DNA of 64,000 nt from Sedimentibacter sp. MB31-C6 (GTDB taxonomy: Bacteria; Bacillota; Clostridia; Tissierellales; Sedimentibacteraceae). Made by a program: the position numbers and the translations under genes. Of this stretch, positions 13,814 through 63,908 are shown piece by piece (positions within the stretch are counted from its first letter, which is position 1; the number at the start of each line of letters is the position of its first letter). The stretch spans positions 310,001-374,000 of the forward strand of contig NZ_CP142396.1 of assembly GCF_035934735.1 (NCBI RefSeq). Direction: 5' to 3'. A model generated the notes under the pieces. The model ran no database searches. It was not told the origin of the DNA and saw only the letters and a list, made by a program, of their open reading frames with translations.

Positions 13814-14842
13814 TTATTTAAATATTTCATTTAAAATCCTGTAGAAATTACCACCTATAATAAGCTTCACATCATCTTCATGTATTCCTCTTTTTAAGAG
13901 TTCTTCCGTCAAAAGATAAACATCAGCATGGGACTTCAGACTATCACTGTCTTGTTCTACATAATTGAACTTTAATTCACTATCATAGTAATTATTGCAT
14001 AAATCAAAGCCATATCCTACATGTTCTGCACCTACTAAGTTAATTATATACTCTATATGGTCAGCTAATTTTTCAATAGGATTATCTTTTTCTTCAACTC
14101 CTGCAATATTTTTATATGCATTAATTCCTATTACACCGTTTCTTTCTGCTATTGCCTTAATTTGATCATCATTTAAATTTCTCATCCTGTTATGTATGCT
14201 TCTGGAGTTTGAATGAGAAGCAATGAATGGCTTGTTTGTAAACTTAACTATATCCCAAAATCCTTCATCATTTAAATGACTTACATCTATAACCATATTC
14301 ATTTCTTCCATCAATTTTACTACCTCAACCCCAAAATTAGTAAGTCCGCCTCTTTGACCTTCTTCAACAGGATTAAAGCTACAGCCGTCTGCAACAAAAT
14401 TTCTTCTGCTCCAAACTAATCCTGCAGCTCTTACACCAAGTTCGTAGAATATTTTTAAAAGACCTAATTCGTTTCCAATAGGCTCTAATCCCTCAAAAGA
14501 TAAAATTATTCCAATTTTATTTTCATTTATTACTTTATTTAGATGCTCTTTTGTCTTTACTAAAATTACTTCCCCATTACATGTTTTTATATCTTCCATA
14601 ATAGCATTTATTTGACCAAGAGCAACTTTCAATGCCATTTCAGGGAGAAATATGCCATCAATATACAAAGATGACACAATTATATTAAATCCACCTTTCT
14701 TAAAATTTTCAAGATATCTATTTTTGATTACATCTTTTTCTCCTGCCATATATCTATTGTATATTTCTCCAGCTAAATCTAAATGTGTATCAATAATTAT
14801 ATTATTTTGATGCAAATTTAATGCCACTTTTTTATAATCCAT
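13814..14842 (-). CDS. Membrane dipeptidase-like M19 peptidase
   Basis: The 342-residue product carries the zinc ligands of the renal dipeptidase family: DTHLDL (H20, D22), an EGLEP motif and later HSNSR. M19 enzymes hydrolyse dipeptides, including some with D-residues. No signal peptide is seen, so it should be cytoplasmic. The ATG at 14842 has a GGAG site. It is the first gene of the run leading to lepB and pepD, which supports a shared peptide-use function. Confidence 0.92.
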   Translation of the reverse strand: MDYKKVALNLHQNNIIIDTHLDLAGEIYNRYMAGEKDVIKNRYLENFKKGGFNIIVSSLYIDGIFLPEMALKVALGQINAIMEDIKTCNGEVILVKTKEHLNKVINENKIGIILSFEGLEPIGNELGLLKIFYELGVRAAGLVWSRRNFVADGCSFNPVEEGQRGGLTNFGVEVVKLMEEMNMVIDVSHLNDEGFWDIVKFTNKPFIASHSNSRSIHNRMRNLNDDQIKAIAERNGVIGINAYKNIAGVEEKDNPIEKLADHIEYIINLVGAEHVGYGFDLCNNYYDSELKFNYVEQDSDSLKSHADVYLLTEELLKRGIHEDDVKLIIGGNFYRILNEIFK

Positions 14843-15100: not shown

Positions 15101-16195
15101 TTAGTTTTTGATAATTTGTATTTCTTTTGTCGCTTTATTTAAAATCTCGTTGCCATTTTCTGTTACTGCAACTATATCTTCTATCCTCATTCCTACTTTT
15201 CCAGCTATATATATGCCAGGCTCAACGCTAAATACCATTCCTTCTTCTAAATATCTTTGATTACTTGCTTTAATGTCTGGAGACTCATGAACAGAATATC
15301 CAATACCATGTCCAAGTCTAGTGAAGAAATATTCTCCATATCCAGCCTTTTCTATCACTTCTCTAGCTGCTTTATCTACATCTGGTATATAAGCTCCATT
15401 AACTGCTGCTTTTTCTCCAGCTTCTTGTGATTGTAATACAATTTCATATATTTTTCTTTCTTCATCAGTAATATCACCTACAAAAACTGTTCTAGACATA
15501 TCTGCACACATATCATTATATTTACAACCCCAATCAAGAACTATAACATCTTTTTCCTGTATAACTCTTTGATCGTCATTATAATGAGGATAAGAAGAAT
15601 TAGGACCTGAACAAACCATAGTAAAACCTTCATCAGCGCCTTTCGCTTTGAAAATTTCATTCATTTTCTTAGCTATATCTGCTTCTTTTATACCTGGTTT
15701 AATAAATTGCAATAATTCTTCATAAGATTCATCTGTTATACGTGCAGCCATCCTCAAATTATCAAGTTCGTCAGCATCCTTTATCATTCTCATTTCTTCT
15801 AATAGAGGCTTTCCGTTTACAAATTTAACATTCACTGCTTCCATAATTTGAAGTATAATAAAAGCCCTTTCTGTTGAATTAACTCCAATAGTTTTACCTA
15901 TTAATCCATTTTCCTGAAATGCCTTCTGTACAGTATCAATAAAATTGTCACCGTCAAACCATCCATAAACCTTAATATCAGGACCTAATACCGCTTGTAC
16001 TTCATCTACCGTCAACAAATTACATATGTAAAAATATGTTCCGTCACTTTTTATAATTAACCCTTGAAATCTTTCACACAAATGTGTATTATGTCCCATA
16101 ATAAATTCCATTTCTTCTGATGGAGCAATTAGTAACGCATCCAATTTTCTATCTTTTAAAATATTGACTAGTTTATCAAAATATTTTTGTCTCAT
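15101..16195 (-). CDS. M24-family aminopeptidase P / Xaa-Pro dipeptidase
   Basis: The 364-residue product has a creatinase-like N-terminal domain (about 1-130) and a pita-bread M24 domain. The metal-binding residues are visible: Asp in VLDWGC and MCADMSRT, His in RLGHGIGYSVHE, Glu in FSVEPGIY and Glu in MRIEDIVAV. Such enzymes release the residue before proline. It lies directly downstream of the FAD/Fe-S dehydrogenase operon but has its own promoter, which suggests linked proline or imino acid use (inference). Confidence 0.92.
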   Translation of the reverse strand: MRQKYFDKLVNILKDRKLDALLIAPSEEMEFIMGHNTHLCERFQGLIIKSDGTYFYICNLLTVDEVQAVLGPDIKVYGWFDGDNFIDTVQKAFQENGLIGKTIGVNSTERAFIILQIMEAVNVKFVNGKPLLEEMRMIKDADELDNLRMAARITDESYEELLQFIKPGIKEADIAKKMNEIFKAKGADEGFTMVCSGPNSSYPHYNDDQRVIQEKDVIVLDWGCKYNDMCADMSRTVFVGDITDEERKIYEIVLQSQEAGEKAAVNGAYIPDVDKAAREVIEKAGYGEYFFTRLGHGIGYSVHESPDIKASNQRYLEEGMVFSVEPGIYIAGKVGMRIEDIVAVTENGNEILNKATKEIQIIKN

Positions 16196-16283: not shown

Positions 16284-17432
16284 CTAAACTACTGATGGTT
16301 CAAGTAATAAATTTCCTGTTTTAAATCTATTTAAATTCAGCATGCTTACATCGATAGTAGGTTCCTCATCTAAAATCATTTCTGACATCACTATTCCTGT
16401 AATAGGACCAAACATAAAACCATGTCCACTGAAACCCACAGCCATATAAAAACCTTCAACATCTTTTGATTTTTCGTATATAGGTTGTTTATCAGGAGTC
16501 ATATTATAAAGACCCGCCCACTGTCTGACTACCCTTAACTTAGATATTGGAGGAAGAATTAAATCGATTGTTTTAGCCATTTCTTCAATGAATTCCCAAC
16601 TTGAAGTCATTCTTAAATCTCTTGGTTCATTAGAATCTCCTCTTCCCATTATAAAAGAACCTTCCGGTGATTGTTGAACATAAAGATTTAAACCAAAGGA
16701 CATTACCATAGGACCTTGCATAGGTTCAACTGGTTCAGTTGCTAAAATTTGATGTCTTTCTGAATATACAGGAATATCAATACCCACCATTTCTGATATT
16801 TCTTTAGACCATCCATTAGTTGCATTAACTACGCAATTTGTAGCTATATTTCCATTATTAGTTACTACACCAACTACTTTATCACTTTTAACAATTATAT
16901 TAGTTACTTCAGTGAAAGTATTAAACTCTACTCCTAATTTTTTAGCAGCTTTATAAAATGCATCAGTTGTATGAAATGGATTCAAAAATCCGTCTTTTTC
17001 ACAATAAGCAGCACCCTTTAAAATACTAGTATTTAAGTATGGTACGATTTCTCTTGCTTCATCTAAATTTAACATACGCGAAGGTATTCCATATTTATGC
17101 TGTATCTTTATATTTTTCTTAAACTGTTCAATTTCTTTATCAGTATCTGCAATTAACAAATATCCACTTTGCTTAAAATCAACATCCCTATCATATTCTA
17201 GTATTTCATTTGCATGTTCATAAAATTCTATACTTTTTTTAGCTATTTTACAGTTCATATCTGTTCCCCACTGCATCCTTACTCCAGCACCACATCTTCC
17301 TGTGGAACCACTACAAATATAACTTTTCTCTAGTACAATTATATTTTTAACTCCTTTTTTAGCTAAATTGTATGCTATTGAACAACCAGAAATTCCTCCT
17401 CCTATAATTACTATATCTGCACTAGTCTTCAT
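16284..17432 (-). CDS. FAD-dependent amine oxidoreductase, sarcosine oxidase beta / proline dehydrogenase beta type
   Basis: The start is placed at ATG 17432 with a GGAGGG site; the in-frame TTG at 17453 lies upstream of that site. The 382-residue DAO-family protein has the FAD-binding GGGISGC (about 11-17), then GRCGAGVRMQWG, and the C-terminal VGFSGHGFMFGP typical of the beta subunits of sarcosine oxidase, opine oxidase, HcnC and dye-linked L-proline dehydrogenase. It should oxidise a secondary or alpha-amine and pass electrons to the other four products. It overlaps the BFD gene by 11 bases. Confidence 0.88.
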   Translation of the reverse strand: MKTSADIVIIGGGISGCSIAYNLAKKGVKNIIVLEKSYICSGSTGRCGAGVRMQWGTDMNCKIAKKSIEFYEHANEILEYDRDVDFKQSGYLLIADTDKEIEQFKKNIKIQHKYGIPSRMLNLDEAREIVPYLNTSILKGAAYCEKDGFLNPFHTTDAFYKAAKKLGVEFNTFTEVTNIIVKSDKVVGVVTNNGNIATNCVVNATNGWSKEISEMVGIDIPVYSERHQILATEPVEPMQGPMVMSFGLNLYVQQSPEGSFIMGRGDSNEPRDLRMTSSWEFIEEMAKTIDLILPPISKLRVVRQWAGLYNMTPDKQPIYEKSKDVEGFYMAVGFSGHGFMFGPITGIVMSEMILDEEPTIDVSMLNLNRFKTGNLLLEPSVV

Positions 17433-17703
17433 CTTTTCTACCCTCCTCTGCAATTAATCCTAGTTTTACACCTACAACAGGAGGTCTATTTGTTTGAAAT
17501 TTTACATCTTTTATATTTTTGCCTGTTGCTAAAGCAATTTCCCTCATAACTAGTTGACCGCAAGTTTTTCCCTGACAAGGTCCCATTCCTATACGGGTTA
17601 TTCTTTTTATTTCTTCAAAAGTTATATACCCTTCGCTTATTAAATTTCTTACTTCTTTTAAGGTAACGTCTGAACATCTACAAATAATTGTATTTTCATC
17701 CAT
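17422..17703 (-). CDS. BFD-like [2Fe-2S] protein
   Basis: The 93-residue product is a stand-alone bacterioferritin-associated-ferredoxin domain with cysteines C8, C10, C43 and C48 (CRC...CQGKTC). In HcnB and opine oxidase alpha chains this domain is fused to the C-terminus of the NAD(P)/FAD-type subunit; here it is a separate gene in the same operon. It should carry electrons between flavin subunits. Confidence 0.9.
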   Translation of the reverse strand: MDENTIICRCSDVTLKEVRNLISEGYITFEEIKRITRIGMGPCQGKTCGQLVMREIALATGKNIKDVKFQTNRPPVVGVKLGLIAEEGRKDED

Positions 17704-17708
17704 TATAA

Positions 17709-18197
17709 CTATACCTCCACTTTTATATTTCTTATATCATATAAATATTTCCTATCAATTTCTATTGTAATTATTGGAGTTCTATCAAAAGATTTTGGAT
17801 TTAATATCTTTAACACCTTTGCATCTGTTATGTAATTTCCTTCTCTATCTAACCCCTTTACTATTTCATCTTTTTTAGGTAATGGCAAAAATTCATAAGG
17901 TATCTTTACTTCTACTGTATAATTTGATTTGGAACCATCCACTATCATTATAGCTAAACCCGGACATTTACTTAAACAAATTCCACAACCAGAACAATTC
18001 TCAAAATTCACTTTAGGGACACTATTAATATCTGTTCCTACTTTAATTGCATCTAACTTACAAGCAGTTTGACATGGATTACATGGTATTTCTTTATAAC
18101 ACTCAACTACAGCAACTGGCCCCCTATTAATTCTATCTACTAAAGGAAACTTTTCCATAATCATATCTTTACTTGGAATTCCCGTTTGTTCGAACAT
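17709..18197 (-). CDS. Two-cluster 4Fe-4S ferredoxin subunit
   Basis: The 162-residue product has two cysteine clusters: C33, C39, C42, C46 and C68, C71, C74, C78 (CSGCGICLSKCPG). The C-terminal half has no recognised domain. Its place between the BFD protein and the flavoprotein suggests it is the electron exit of the dehydrogenase complex. The ATG has an AGGAGG site. Confidence 0.88.
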   Translation of the reverse strand: MFEQTGIPSKDMIMEKFPLVDRINRGPVAVVECYKEIPCNPCQTACKLDAIKVGTDINSVPKVNFENCSGCGICLSKCPGLAIMIVDGSKSNYTVEVKIPYEFLPLPKKDEIVKGLDREGNYITDAKVLKILNPKSFDRTPIITIEIDRKYLYDIRNIKVEV

Positions 18198-18209: not shown

Positions 18210-19295
18210 TTATCTATTTACAATTTGCTCAATTCCAATCAAAATTTTTTGTCCAACTGGTCCTGAGCGTAAGTTATATAATTGTTTCTCAAATTCTGCC
18301 CTTTTTACTTCATAGTCATTAGACTTATGTCCTATTTTCGCTGCTGCACAAAGGCCAGCTAAATATCCTTCTACCATTGCTGAACTTGCTTCTTCTATAC
18401 CACATGCATCACCTGCTACAAATACATTTTCTATAGAGGTTTCGTAATTATCGTTTCTCACGGGAACAGAACCGCTTAATTGGGGAACATACTTCATTTC
18501 ACATCCCCTCATTGATAACAACTCATTTAAAGGAGTAAGGCCAACAGAAATGCACATAACATCAACATTAAATTCTTTTTCCGTATCACTAATTTGTTCA
18601 AATTTATCATTAACTTTACATACTATTACTTTTTCTAAACAATCTTTTCCAATAGCCTCTTTTACCGTATGAGAAGTTAAAATAGGTACACCCATTCTCC
18701 TAATTTTTGAAGCATGAACTAAATATCCTCCAATTTTTGGAGCTGCATCAAGAATAGCTACAACTTCTACACCAGCTTGCATCAATTGATAACTTACTAT
18801 GAGACCAATATTTCCAGCCCCTACCATAAGAACTTTTTTTCCTGGTTTAACACCATATACATTCATTAATGTTTGTACCGCTCCTGCACCATAAATTCCT
18901 GGTAAATCATTATTTGGAAATGCTAGGTATTTTTCAAAGGCTCCTGTTGCAACAACAATAGCTTTTGGCTTTATTTTAAAATAATTGTCTTCTTTATGTA
19001 AAATAGTGATTACACCATCTTCATACATACCAACAACAGTAGAATCCATCATTACTTTAACGTTTTCATATAACATTTTTAATTCATTTACTAATATTTC
19101 TTTTATGTCAATTCCTCTTGTTGAAGCATATTGTTTTTCTGAACCAAAAAACATATGTGTTTGTTTAACTAATTGACCGCCGAAGTCTTTGTTTCTCTCT
19201 ATAATAAGTACCTTTGAACCACTTTTAGCAGCACTTATTGCAGCACATAAACCTGCTGGACCACCACCAATTACAACTAAATCGGCCTCTTTCAT
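18210..19295 (-). CDS. NAD(P)/FAD-dependent oxidoreductase, HcnB / proline dehydrogenase alpha type
   Basis: The 361-residue flavoprotein has an N-terminal dinucleotide motif GGGPAG (about 10-15), a second GAGNIG motif mid-protein, and VFVAGDACG near the C-terminus for FAD. It lacks the N-terminal 2Fe-2S and C-terminal BFD parts found in fused homologues, because both are neighbouring genes. The ATG overlaps the stop of the 2Fe-2S gene. The best parallel is the alpha subunit of heteromeric amine dehydrogenases; the substrate is not fixed by sequence. Confidence 0.88.
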   Translation of the reverse strand: MKEADLVVIGGGPAGLCAAISAAKSGSKVLIIERNKDFGGQLVKQTHMFFGSEKQYASTRGIDIKEILVNELKMLYENVKVMMDSTVVGMYEDGVITILHKEDNYFKIKPKAIVVATGAFEKYLAFPNNDLPGIYGAGAVQTLMNVYGVKPGKKVLMVGAGNIGLIVSYQLMQAGVEVVAILDAAPKIGGYLVHASKIRRMGVPILTSHTVKEAIGKDCLEKVIVCKVNDKFEQISDTEKEFNVDVMCISVGLTPLNELLSMRGCEMKYVPQLSGSVPVRNDNYETSIENVFVAGDACGIEEASSAMVEGYLAGLCAAAKIGHKSNDYEVKRAEFEKQLYNLRSGPVGQKILIGIEQIVNR

Positions 19296-19600
19296 TTTAT
19301 CACCCCTTTTCCTTCCTGAGTTTCAACTATCATCCCTTCTTTTAAATCAGTAACACAAGTTTTAATATTAGGTACACCATTAACTACCATAAAGCAAGAT
19401 GAACAATTACCAATTGCACAAAAAAATCCTCTTGGTCTGTTAGAAAATAAACTTTTGCCTAAAACCTTTACACCTGCTGCATGCAAAGCTGCAGCTATCG
19501 TTTCTCCTTCATATCCTTCTACTTCTTGTCCATTAAAAGTAAATTTAATTATTTTTTTTCTTTTAAATTCAAGAATAGGATGGTTTTCAATTCGCATCAT
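19292..19600 (-). CDS. 2Fe-2S subunit (Fer2_4), sarcosine oxidase alpha N-terminal type
   Basis: The 102-residue product matches the Fer2_4 domain that begins sarcosine oxidase alpha chains: YEGETIAAAL, then cysteines C61, C66, C69 and C82 (C-x4-C-x2-C-x12-C). It is the first gene of a tightly packed five-gene operon. Two ATG codons in tandem follow GGAGTG. A sigma-54 promoter lies about 90 bases upstream. Confidence 0.9.
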   Translation of the reverse strand: MMRIENHPILEFKRKKIIKFTFNGQEVEGYEGETIAAALHAAGVKVLGKSLFSNRPRGFFCAIGNCSSCFMVVNGVPNIKTCVTDLKEGMIVETQEGKGVIK

Positions 19601-19690
19601 TTAAACACTCCTTTAATATTTTTACAGCAATATCATAATTTAACACAAATAGACGAAACATACATCTATTTCCTATTTATACTTTATTAG

Positions 19691-19706
19691 AGCAATTACC
19701 ATGCCA
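19691..19706 (-). promoter_or_regulatory. Sigma-54 promoter of the FAD/Fe-S dehydrogenase operon
   Basis: On the minus strand the sequence TGGCATGGTAATTGCT has the -24 GG and -12 GC exactly 10 bases apart, close to the consensus TGGCAC-N5-TTGCT. Start of transcription is expected near 19680. Confidence 0.85.
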
Positions 19707-19788
19707 ATACAATATAAAATTATTACATTTTATAAACCTCAAATTTGAACTAATTGAATTAACTAATAATTTACTGCATATATATAAT

Positions 19789-19828
19789 GTCAAATTTATG
19801 ACAATTCGTCATATTTCTGACATGTCAG
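19789..19828. promoter_or_regulatory. Array of GTCA/TGAC half-sites, probable activator binding site
   Basis: Half-sites alternate: GTCA 19789, TGAC 19799, GTCA 19808, TGAC 19818, GTCA 19824. The last two form the perfect 12-base palindrome CTGACATGTCAG. The array lies about 110-150 bases upstream of the expected sigma-54 start site, where enhancer-binding activators usually bind. Confidence 0.6.
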
Positions 19829-20039
19829 TTTTTCGATAAGATACTAATATGTTTTCACATTAATTACTTTAATTATTCAGAAACTTTATTAATTATATAT
19901 ATTATAACTATATGATAAAATGAAATAATAATATTATTGACATGCTTAAATAAACTAAAATTACAATAAAATCAAGATTAATTTTCATTTTATTAGTATT
20001 ATTATATTTATAATAATTTGTATAGAACTATAAAAATTA

Positions 20040-20068
20040 TTGATTTATAGTATGTCATGTGCTATACT
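20040..20068 (+). promoter_or_regulatory. Promoter of trkA-trkH
   Basis: TTGATT (20040-20045) and TATACT (20063-20068) are 17 bases apart, about 45 bases before the trkA ATG. The rest of 19830-20110 is AT-rich; no riboswitch of the c-di-AMP (ydaO) type is recognisable. Confidence 0.65.
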
Positions 20069-20113
20069 ATTTGGAATGTAGCCTAATGCTATACTTTTTA
20101 TTGGAGGAAATTA

Positions 20114-21481
20114 ATGAAAATAATTATAGTCGGTGGAGGTAAAGTTGGTTATACTCTAGCTCAACAACTCTCTACTGAAAATCATGATATAACGCTAGTT
20201 GATAACAATTCTAATGTATTGAATCGTGCTGATGAAACCTTAGATGTTATGTGTATAAAAGGAAATGGAGCAAGCGCAGAAATATTAAAGGCAGCTGGTG
20301 TTAGTCATACAGACCTATTAATTACCGTTACAGATAGTGATGAATTAAATATGATTTGTAGTGTCATTGGTAAAAAGTTAGGTGCATTGCACACAGTTGC
20401 TAGAATTAGGAATACAGATTATTCCAATGAGCATAAAATGCTAAAGCAAGAGCTTGAGCTTGACATGGTTATAAACCCTGAAATGGATGCTGCTGCAGAA
20501 ATATCAAGAACATTGCAGTTTACTTCTGCCACCAATGTTGAAACTTTTGCAAATAATATGTTAGAAATGGTTCAATTTCGAGTATTAGAAACAGACCCTA
20601 TAGTTAATAAAACATTAATTGATTTAGCTAAAACCAGACCATCAAATGTATTGTTCTGTGCAGTTAGCAGAAATAACGAAGTCTTTATACCAAAAGGAAG
20701 CTTTGTATTTAATCCAAATGATGTAGTTTATGTAATTGGAGAAAGAGGCGATATATCAAGTTTCTTTAATTATTTAGGACGCAGTTCTCAAAAACCAAAA
20801 AATATTACTATAGTTGGTGGAAGCAGAATTAGTATTTATTTAACATGGCTTTTAAGTGAAATTGGAATGAATGTAAAAATAATTGAACTTAAAAAAGAGA
20901 GATGTCTTCTCTTAAATGAAATTTTATCTAATGCATTGATAATTTGTGGGGACGGTACAGATCAGGAAGTTTTAGACAATGAAAATATTGTTTCAGCTGA
21001 CGCTTTTGTAGCTCTTACTGACAGAGATGAAGAGAATTTAATTAGCTCTCTATATGCACATCAATGCAATGTGCCTAAAGTAGTACTAAAAATAAATCGT
21101 TTAAATTATGTGCCAATTGTTAAAAAACTAGGTTTAGACAGTATAATTAGTCCAAAATATACAACTGCTAATAATATATTAAGATATGTAAGAGCACTGA
21201 ATAATTCAAAAGGAATCGCTGTAGAAAAATTATACAAAATTATGGATGATAAAGCCGAAGTTGCTGAATTTACTGCAAAAAACCCAAACGAATTAGTAGG
21301 ACTTTTAAATATTAAATTAAAAGATTTAAACTTAAAAAAAGATATATTGATAGCAGCAATAGTTCGAAATAAAAAAATTATTATTCCATATGGTGATGAT
21401 TTAATAAAAGCAGGGGACAAAGTTATTGTTGTTACAAAAAAAGGATTTATAACTGATTTAAAAGAAATTCTAGAAGCTTAA
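20114..21481 (+). CDS. trkA: Trk potassium uptake regulatory subunit TrkA
   Basis: The 455-residue product has the duplicated RCK layout of TrkA: an NAD-binding motif IIVGGGKVGYTLA at the N-terminus, a TrkA-C part, then a second nucleotide fold from about residue 233 (ITIVGGSRISIYL) and a second TrkA-C part. It binds NAD(H)/ATP and gates the TrkH channel from the cytoplasm. The ATG has a strong GGAGG site. It is the first gene of a two-gene operon. Confidence 0.95.
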   Translation: MKIIIVGGGKVGYTLAQQLSTENHDITLVDNNSNVLNRADETLDVMCIKGNGASAEILKAAGVSHTDLLITVTDSDELNMICSVIGKKLGALHTVARIRNTDYSNEHKMLKQELELDMVINPEMDAAAEISRTLQFTSATNVETFANNMLEMVQFRVLETDPIVNKTLIDLAKTRPSNVLFCAVSRNNEVFIPKGSFVFNPNDVVYVIGERGDISSFFNYLGRSSQKPKNITIVGGSRISIYLTWLLSEIGMNVKIIELKKERCLLLNEILSNALIICGDGTDQEVLDNENIVSADAFVALTDRDEENLISSLYAHQCNVPKVVLKINRLNYVPIVKKLGLDSIISPKYTTANNILRYVRALNNSKGIAVEKLYKIMDDKAEVAEFTAKNPNELVGLLNIKLKDLNLKKDILIAAIVRNKKIIIPYGDDLIKAGDKVIVVTKKGFITDLKEILEA

Positions 21482-63892: not shown

Positions 63893-63908
63893 AGCAATAA
63901 CTATGCCA
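63893..63908 (-). promoter_or_regulatory. Sigma-54 promoter of the ornithine operon
   Basis: On the minus strand TGGCATAGTTATTGCT places GG and GC exactly 10 bases apart, as required for sigma-54. It differs at only two positions from the promoter at 19691-19706. Transcription should start near 63880. The upstream activator region reaches the window edge and is only partly visible. Confidence 0.85.

Follow-up and report, generated by a model that had tools for sequence, protein, structure and literature searches.

A conserved array of inverted repeats upstream of a σ54 promoter in Sedimentibacter and its probable enhancer-binding protein

The closest described systems are found in clostridia, Escherichia coli and Bacillus thuringiensis. 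In the accessible part of their study, Nie et al. (2019; PMC6615313) report TGT-N10-12-ACA upstream activating sequences for 15 groups of clostridial enhancer-binding proteins (EBPs), PrdR among them; most sites lie 100-250 bp upstream, often several per promoter, and the promoter reads TTGGCAT-N5-TTGCT. Table 1 of that study contains no sarcosine-oxidase/proline-dehydrogenase-like operon as a target. For NorR of E. coli, the available sections of PMC2941729 describe three enhancer sites upstream of the single σ54 promoter of norVW, which are essential and scaffold a higher-order oligomer. Moreover, SoxR of B. thuringiensis is a σ54 EBP that activates the sarcosine-oxidase-like SoxA/SoxB operon from an inverted-repeat site, according to the accessible portion of PMC4941409. 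A literature search that reached few subscription journals found no earlier account of the EBP-operon pair described below.

We analyzed a window of 64,000 nucleotides from Sedimentibacter sp. MB31-C6, whose positions are used throughout. Its sequence contains five half-sites, GTCA at 19789, TGAC at 19799, GTCA at 19808, TGAC at 19818 and GTCA at 19824, as well as a 12-bp palindrome, CTGACATGTCAG, at 19817-19828; both are located where the original prediction had placed them. No other cluster with at least four half-sites per 40 bp exists in the window. Dinucleotide-preserving shuffles of the 513-bp intergenic region never produced five half-sites per 40 bp (0/4000), and four were seen in one shuffle. 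On the minus strand, the half-sites form the arms of three 16-bp dyads with the pattern YGTCA-N6-TGACR:

19788..19803, minus strand, dyad 1, promoter-proximal, TGTCATAAATTTGACA; 17.3 bits; begins 97 bp upstream of the -24 element
19807..19822, minus strand, dyad 2, TGTCAGAAATATGACG; 19.2 bits; 19 bp upstream of dyad 1
19823..19838, minus strand, dyad 3, weak, TATCGAAAAACTGACA; 11.3 bits; abuts dyad 2

The corresponding distances are 116 bp for dyad 2 and 132 bp for dyad 3, and all three agree with the position of upstream activating sequences, roughly 100-250 bp upstream of a -24/-12 promoter. This layout revises the original prediction in part. The half-sites do occupy 19789-19828, but the feature itself reaches 19838. 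Instead of half-sites spaced near one helical turn, the repeating unit is a 16-bp dyad with a pitch of 19 and then 16 bp. The palindrome is present but is not a site by itself, since it is created by the junction of the abutting dyads 2 and 3. The matrix behind these scores was trained on 41 sites of 19 orthologs and did not include the sequence of the window. Across 500 shuffled versions of the region, the best matrix score was at most 3.6 bits in 95% of cases and 12.8 bits at the highest. Dyad 3 is therefore insecure on score alone, since its 11.3 bits are within the range of the best shuffle.

The σ54 promoter was detected by a consensus search with TGGCAYNNNNNTTGCW, which has 24 matches in the genome compared to one for the reversed control. 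It is located about 85 bp from the start codon of the first gene (19600) and is oriented towards an operon that encodes a sarcosine-oxidase/proline-dehydrogenase-like complex as well as peptidases:

19691..19706, minus strand, σ54 promoter (-24/-12), TGGCATGGTAATTGCT
19292..19600, minus strand, first operon gene, 2Fe-2S protein (Fer2_4; SoxA N-terminus-like)
18210..19295, minus strand, FAD/NAD oxidoreductase (Pyr_redox_2; SoxA-like)
17709..18197, minus strand, 4Fe-4S ferredoxin-like subunit
17422..17703, minus strand, BFD-like 2Fe-2S / SoxA A3-domain subunit
16284..17453, minus strand, DAO-family FAD oxidoreductase (SoxB-like catalytic subunit); best solved relative 1y56 chain B, E 4.5e-82
15101..16195, minus strand, M24 peptidase (Xaa-Pro dipeptidase-like), probably co-transcribed; gene order kept in relatives
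13814..14842, minus strand, M19 dipeptidase, probably co-transcribed; gene order kept in relatives

The operon is a split SoxA/SoxB-like set (Fer2_4, Pyr_redox_2, 4Fe-4S, BFD/A3, DAO) followed by the M24 and M19 peptidases. The solved structure closest to the DAO subunit, 1y56 chain B, is labelled sarcosine oxidase; we take 1y56 to be the Pyrococcus dye-linked L-proline dehydrogenase. Gene order was read in 18 of the 80 named loci introduced below. Downstream of the oxidoreductase set, relatives carry genes for a ferredoxin and an aldehyde:ferredoxin oxidoreductase, and Geosporobacter ferrireducens has ProA (glutamate-5-semialdehyde dehydrogenase) at this place. Because of the ProA and aldehyde oxidoreductase neighbors and the 1y56 relative, the substrate is most likely proline or a related amino acid; proline would be converted to glutamate through the semialdehyde. 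Instead of proline, the complex might use sarcosine, hydroxyproline or some other secondary amine.

Some further features of the region are of note. In sister lineages (L088:2175-4843, minus strand, and relatives) the operon carries a tungsten-type aldehyde:ferredoxin oxidoreductase and a polyferredoxin, and Sedimentibacter has neither at this place. A σ54 promoter-like match, TGGCATTAAATTTGCA, is found at 14811-14826 (minus strand) within the start of the M19 dipeptidase gene; it has no dyads upstream and may be due to chance. The window has a second σ54 promoter, TGGCATAGTTATTGCT, at 63893-63908 (minus strand), which adjoins an EBP gene past the window end (G000:C1:374707; G000 being the window's genome).

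The original prediction held that a lack of conservation upstream of orthologous operons would count against the array. We searched for the array there and found it to be conserved. The search covered 27 genomes of the family and yielded 23 close orthologs of the operon flavoprotein (at least 74% identity, own included), 20 of which have a σ54 match upstream. Among the three that do not, the sequence of L054 is interrupted by its contig end and a run of N, and in L049 only ~140 bp precede the first gene; L053 has its full upstream region. A pair of dyads exactly 19 bp apart is present in all 19 genus loci with a σ54 match, own included, which corresponds to 19 of the 20 family loci; in the sister genus (G001, L056) the 19-bp pair is missing, and the dyads that do occur are isolated and weaker (12.5 and 10.6 bits). 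The position of dyad 3, 16 bp further up, holds a site above 8 bits in 5 of the 19 genus loci, own included, and none above this value in the other 14. The mean majority fraction is 0.75 in the columns of the array, compared to 0.48 in the flanks, and G/C columns of at least 80% number 8 versus 0. The distance between dyads and promoter varies from 77 to 102 bp across the genus and the pitch stays constant. When the same motif procedure was applied to eight shuffled sets, it returned 0-8 sites with no recurring spacing. Moreover, the upstream dyads of S. saalensis and S. hydroxybenzoicus are identical to those of G004 and G003, which belong to the same genus. We also considered helical phasing of the array relative to the promoter (Rayleigh R 0.51, p ~0.007 at 10.5 bp, n = 19 distances). 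This peak is broad, with its optimum near 11.5 bp, and the test was post hoc and took no account of kinship, so that phasing is not used as evidence.

A single GTCA-N6-TGAC motif is not enriched genome-wide, since the 3.02-Mb genome contains 7 copies, including two in the array, compared to 25 of the reversed pattern. The tandem arrangement is specific. We searched the 27 genomes for YGTC-N8-GACR-N3-YGTC-N8-GACR, and all 11 places found with 0 mismatches are at this operon, as are 7 of the 9 with one mismatch; at two mismatches there was no excess over the reversed control in these genomes. Furthermore, among the 24 σ54 promoters of the genome only the operon promoter has the dyads. The next-best promoter, L074, scores 10.6 bits and has a different, mirror-ordered palindrome, and the remaining promoters reach at most 6.4 bits. 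L074 (G000:C1:1542621, outside the window) is a σ54 promoter with three mirror-order dyads, CGACA-N6-TGTCG; nearby are the EBP L021 and, at 1544666, a PrdB-family-like gene that contains TGA. The mirror-order dyads are perhaps the enhancer of a glycine/betaine-type reductase.

To which EBP the dyads belong is suggested by other families. A scan of named species gave 80 loci, including those of S. saalensis, S. hydroxybenzoicus and Dethiosulfatibacter aminovorans; the named set overlaps the unnamed collection (e.g., L175 is G001), and the two counts are not added together. Sixty-three loci are outside the genus (the genus rows, L169 and earlier, being excluded), and of these the 9 with less than 2.2 kb upstream were set aside, leaving 54. 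An EBP with at least 45% identity was found directly upstream in 8 of the 54, all of which combine a σ54 promoter with two or more dyads. In the 46 loci lacking an EBP directly upstream, two dyads never occur together, a single one occurs in three loci, and the 900 bp examined contain no σ54 match. Three of the 46 (L222, L224, L228) have a sister EBP further upstream with a gene in between, which in L228 is an SNF-family symporter. In these three loci the EBP gene is followed by three dyads of at least 14.5 bits each, with a strict σ54 match in two; L228 has the dyads and no strict match. In L215, where no sister EBP was detected, there are no dyads. Seen from the EBP side, there are nine EBP loci in three other families of the order. 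In eight of them the EBP gene precedes the first genes of the operon, and the interval between them contains a σ54 promoter and two or more dyads. The ninth, L136, ends at a contig edge and has one dyad. In these families the dyad pitch is 19-21 bp. Several copies of the inverted repeat are thus conserved upstream of orthologs, as is typical of upstream activating sequences, in 19 of 19 genus loci and 8 of 8 EBP-linked loci. The dyad pitch outside the genus is 18-21 bp, and the constant 19 bp therefore applies to the genus alone. A tree of 49 rows (from which L003, L015, L020, L111 and L198 were left out) unites the genus EBPs, including that of the window's genome, with the operon-linked EBPs in a single clade (support 99/95). 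The proposal that the array is an enhancer for a σ54 activator is supported by the dyads at orthologous operons and by their position beside the gene of one particular EBP in other families, a link that comes from comparing sequences across genomes.

The genome contains a σ54 gene and 21 strong EBP matches. In G001, of the sister genus, the EBP gene lies directly upstream of the operon; that the 19-bp pair is missing there counts against the proposed link. Compared with 19 of the 21 EBPs of the window's genome (L003 and L015 left out), the G001 EBP is most similar to L013, with 64% identity over 470 residues, followed by 38% for the next. A whole-genome search with the EBP also gave one match in G000 at E values up to 1e-120. 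The candidate gene is located at G000:C1 ~758.7-760.1 kb. Both it and the G001 EBP gene have a methyltransferase and glnS as neighbors, indicating that operon and regulator gene have moved apart, by ~430 kb, in Sedimentibacter. The candidate has an N-terminal PAS domain and the two domains that define NtrC-type EBPs, a σ54-interaction AAA+ domain (PF00158, 226.7 bits) and a Fis-type helix-turn-helix (PF02954, 47.9 bits). As the single ortholog of the operon-linked EBP in this genome, L013 is the probable regulator of the operon. The motif had at first seemed impossible to assign to a named regulator; it now falls within a published class, whose TGT and ACA arms are separated by 10-12 bp according to the accessible part of PMC6615313, and can be tentatively assigned to one EBP of the genome. 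The 14-kb EBP region of the genome (L089) has no dyads of at least 9 bits that would point to autoregulation. An in-frame TAG in the EBP of G032, G034 and G035 proved to be the natural stop near the C-terminus. G002 has a second EBP, 49% identical, with two related dyads nearby (CGTCTAATAATAGACA, CGTTTAATATTAGACA; L111:1401-1459), perhaps a paralogous regulon.

Presence and absence of promoter and EBP were compared in 22 operon genomes with a readable upstream region (G006 left out); since the assemblies are unequally complete, this is supporting evidence only. The σ54 promoter is present in 20 of the 22, and 19 of these 20 also have the EBP; in G020 (88% complete) promoter and sites are present and the EBP was not found. 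G007 and G018 have neither promoter nor EBP. Conversely, G014 and G024 have the EBP and no close ortholog of the operon.

We consider it improbable that the dyads are bound by a different EBP of the genome, such as a PrdR-like protein or a glycine-reductase regulator. There are 21 EBPs to choose from, the TGT-N10-12-ACA class is common to 15 EBP groups in what is accessible of PMC6615313, and G020 keeps its sites although no EBP ortholog was found. Yet two or more dyads accompany the operon in 8 of 8 loci with this EBP upstream and in 0 of 46 without, and the other σ54 promoters of the genome, many of them beside other EBPs, lack the dyads. PrdR in particular fits poorly, as the target is another operon and no PrdB match in the genome exceeds the cut-off of 300 bits (two are at ~89 bits).

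It is even harder to see the array as an operator for a regulator of the divergent trkA gene or of a σ70 promoter rather than as an enhancer of the minus-strand operon. While trkA starts at 20114 on the other strand and TTGACA/CTGACA-like hexamers overlap the array, σ70-like matches number 11 compared to 13.6 in shuffles, and the scans for σ70-like promoters and terminators gave results that were either weak or not above shuffles. Moreover, in L160 and L168, which have no trkA neighbor, the dyads stay with the operon, and the other families have no trkA there. Least credible of all, with a negligible likelihood, is a chance cluster or a structural element of DNA or RNA that no regulator binds. 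Hairpins can arise from palindromic sequence, and G000 has other single GTCA-N6-TGAC sites, but this is opposed by the absence of equally dense shuffles, by conservation in all 19 loci with diverged spacers and by the lack of any Rfam family in 19000-20500.

The array is thus very probably a σ54 enhancer, that is an upstream activating sequence, bound by one NtrC-type EBP. The enhancer is real, well conserved and of a known class; what is newly traced is its probable regulator. From the comparison of sequences, which yields the dyads, their spacing, the promoter, the conservation and the EBP link, we infer binding, oligomer formation, looping and activation, as well as signal and substrate. 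EBP dimers, each subunit with a PAS sensor, an AAA+ domain and a Fis-type helix-turn-helix, would bind the two strong and the one weak 16-bp dyad. The fixed pitch of 19 bp (and 16 bp) would set neighboring dimers such that their AAA+ domains assemble an active oligomer. This oligomer would loop across ~100 bp to σ54-RNA polymerase at 19691-19706, and the looped complex would start transcription of the minus-strand operon. A broader picture strikes us as evenly balanced between right and wrong: the PAS-sensor EBP group, for which Table 1 of PMC6615313 gives no comparable target, would command the oxidative arm of proline/imino-acid fermentation across several clostridial families, and in Sedimentibacter its gene would have become unlinked from the one target detected. 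The template for the activator ring would nevertheless have been kept as a rigid scaffold of two dimers (19 bp, with an optional third dimer 16 bp further), and promoter and regulator would tend to be lost together, as in G007 and G018. Starting from an orphan sequence pattern, the analysis provides a testable regulator-site-operon set for strict anaerobes that ferment amino acids, singles out one EBP among 21 for study and predicts the sequence that it binds. Furthermore, the natural series of promoter distances (77-102 bp) at a fixed 19-bp pitch is useful for studying how dimer spacing sets the assembly of EBP rings.

How does the array compare with the known systems? As at norVW, to the extent that the accessible account describes it, three sites lie upstream of one σ54 promoter. 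NorR belongs to a different EBP family, its sensor domain is a GAF domain for NO, and its site consensus has a different half-site spacing. In contrast to norVW, the third site here is weak, and since only 5 of 19 loci have one above 8 bits, three sites are no general need in this system. SoxR/soxB shares the combination of a σ54 EBP, whose role is predicted in our case, with a sarcosine-oxidase-like operon and an inverted-repeat site. It differs, in the portion of the account that is accessible, by its single 11-bp inverted repeat with a 7-bp gap and an A/T-only-like footprint 54 bp upstream of the start, and by being aerobic. In form the array fits the clostridial class as far as its published description is available: TGTCA-N6-TGACA of the array is TGT-N10-ACA, the EBP is of the Fis type, and several sites lie upstream of a σ54 promoter. 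What sets the Sedimentibacter array apart from that class is a pitch fixed at 19 bp within the genus and a regulator gene that is unlinked from the operon.
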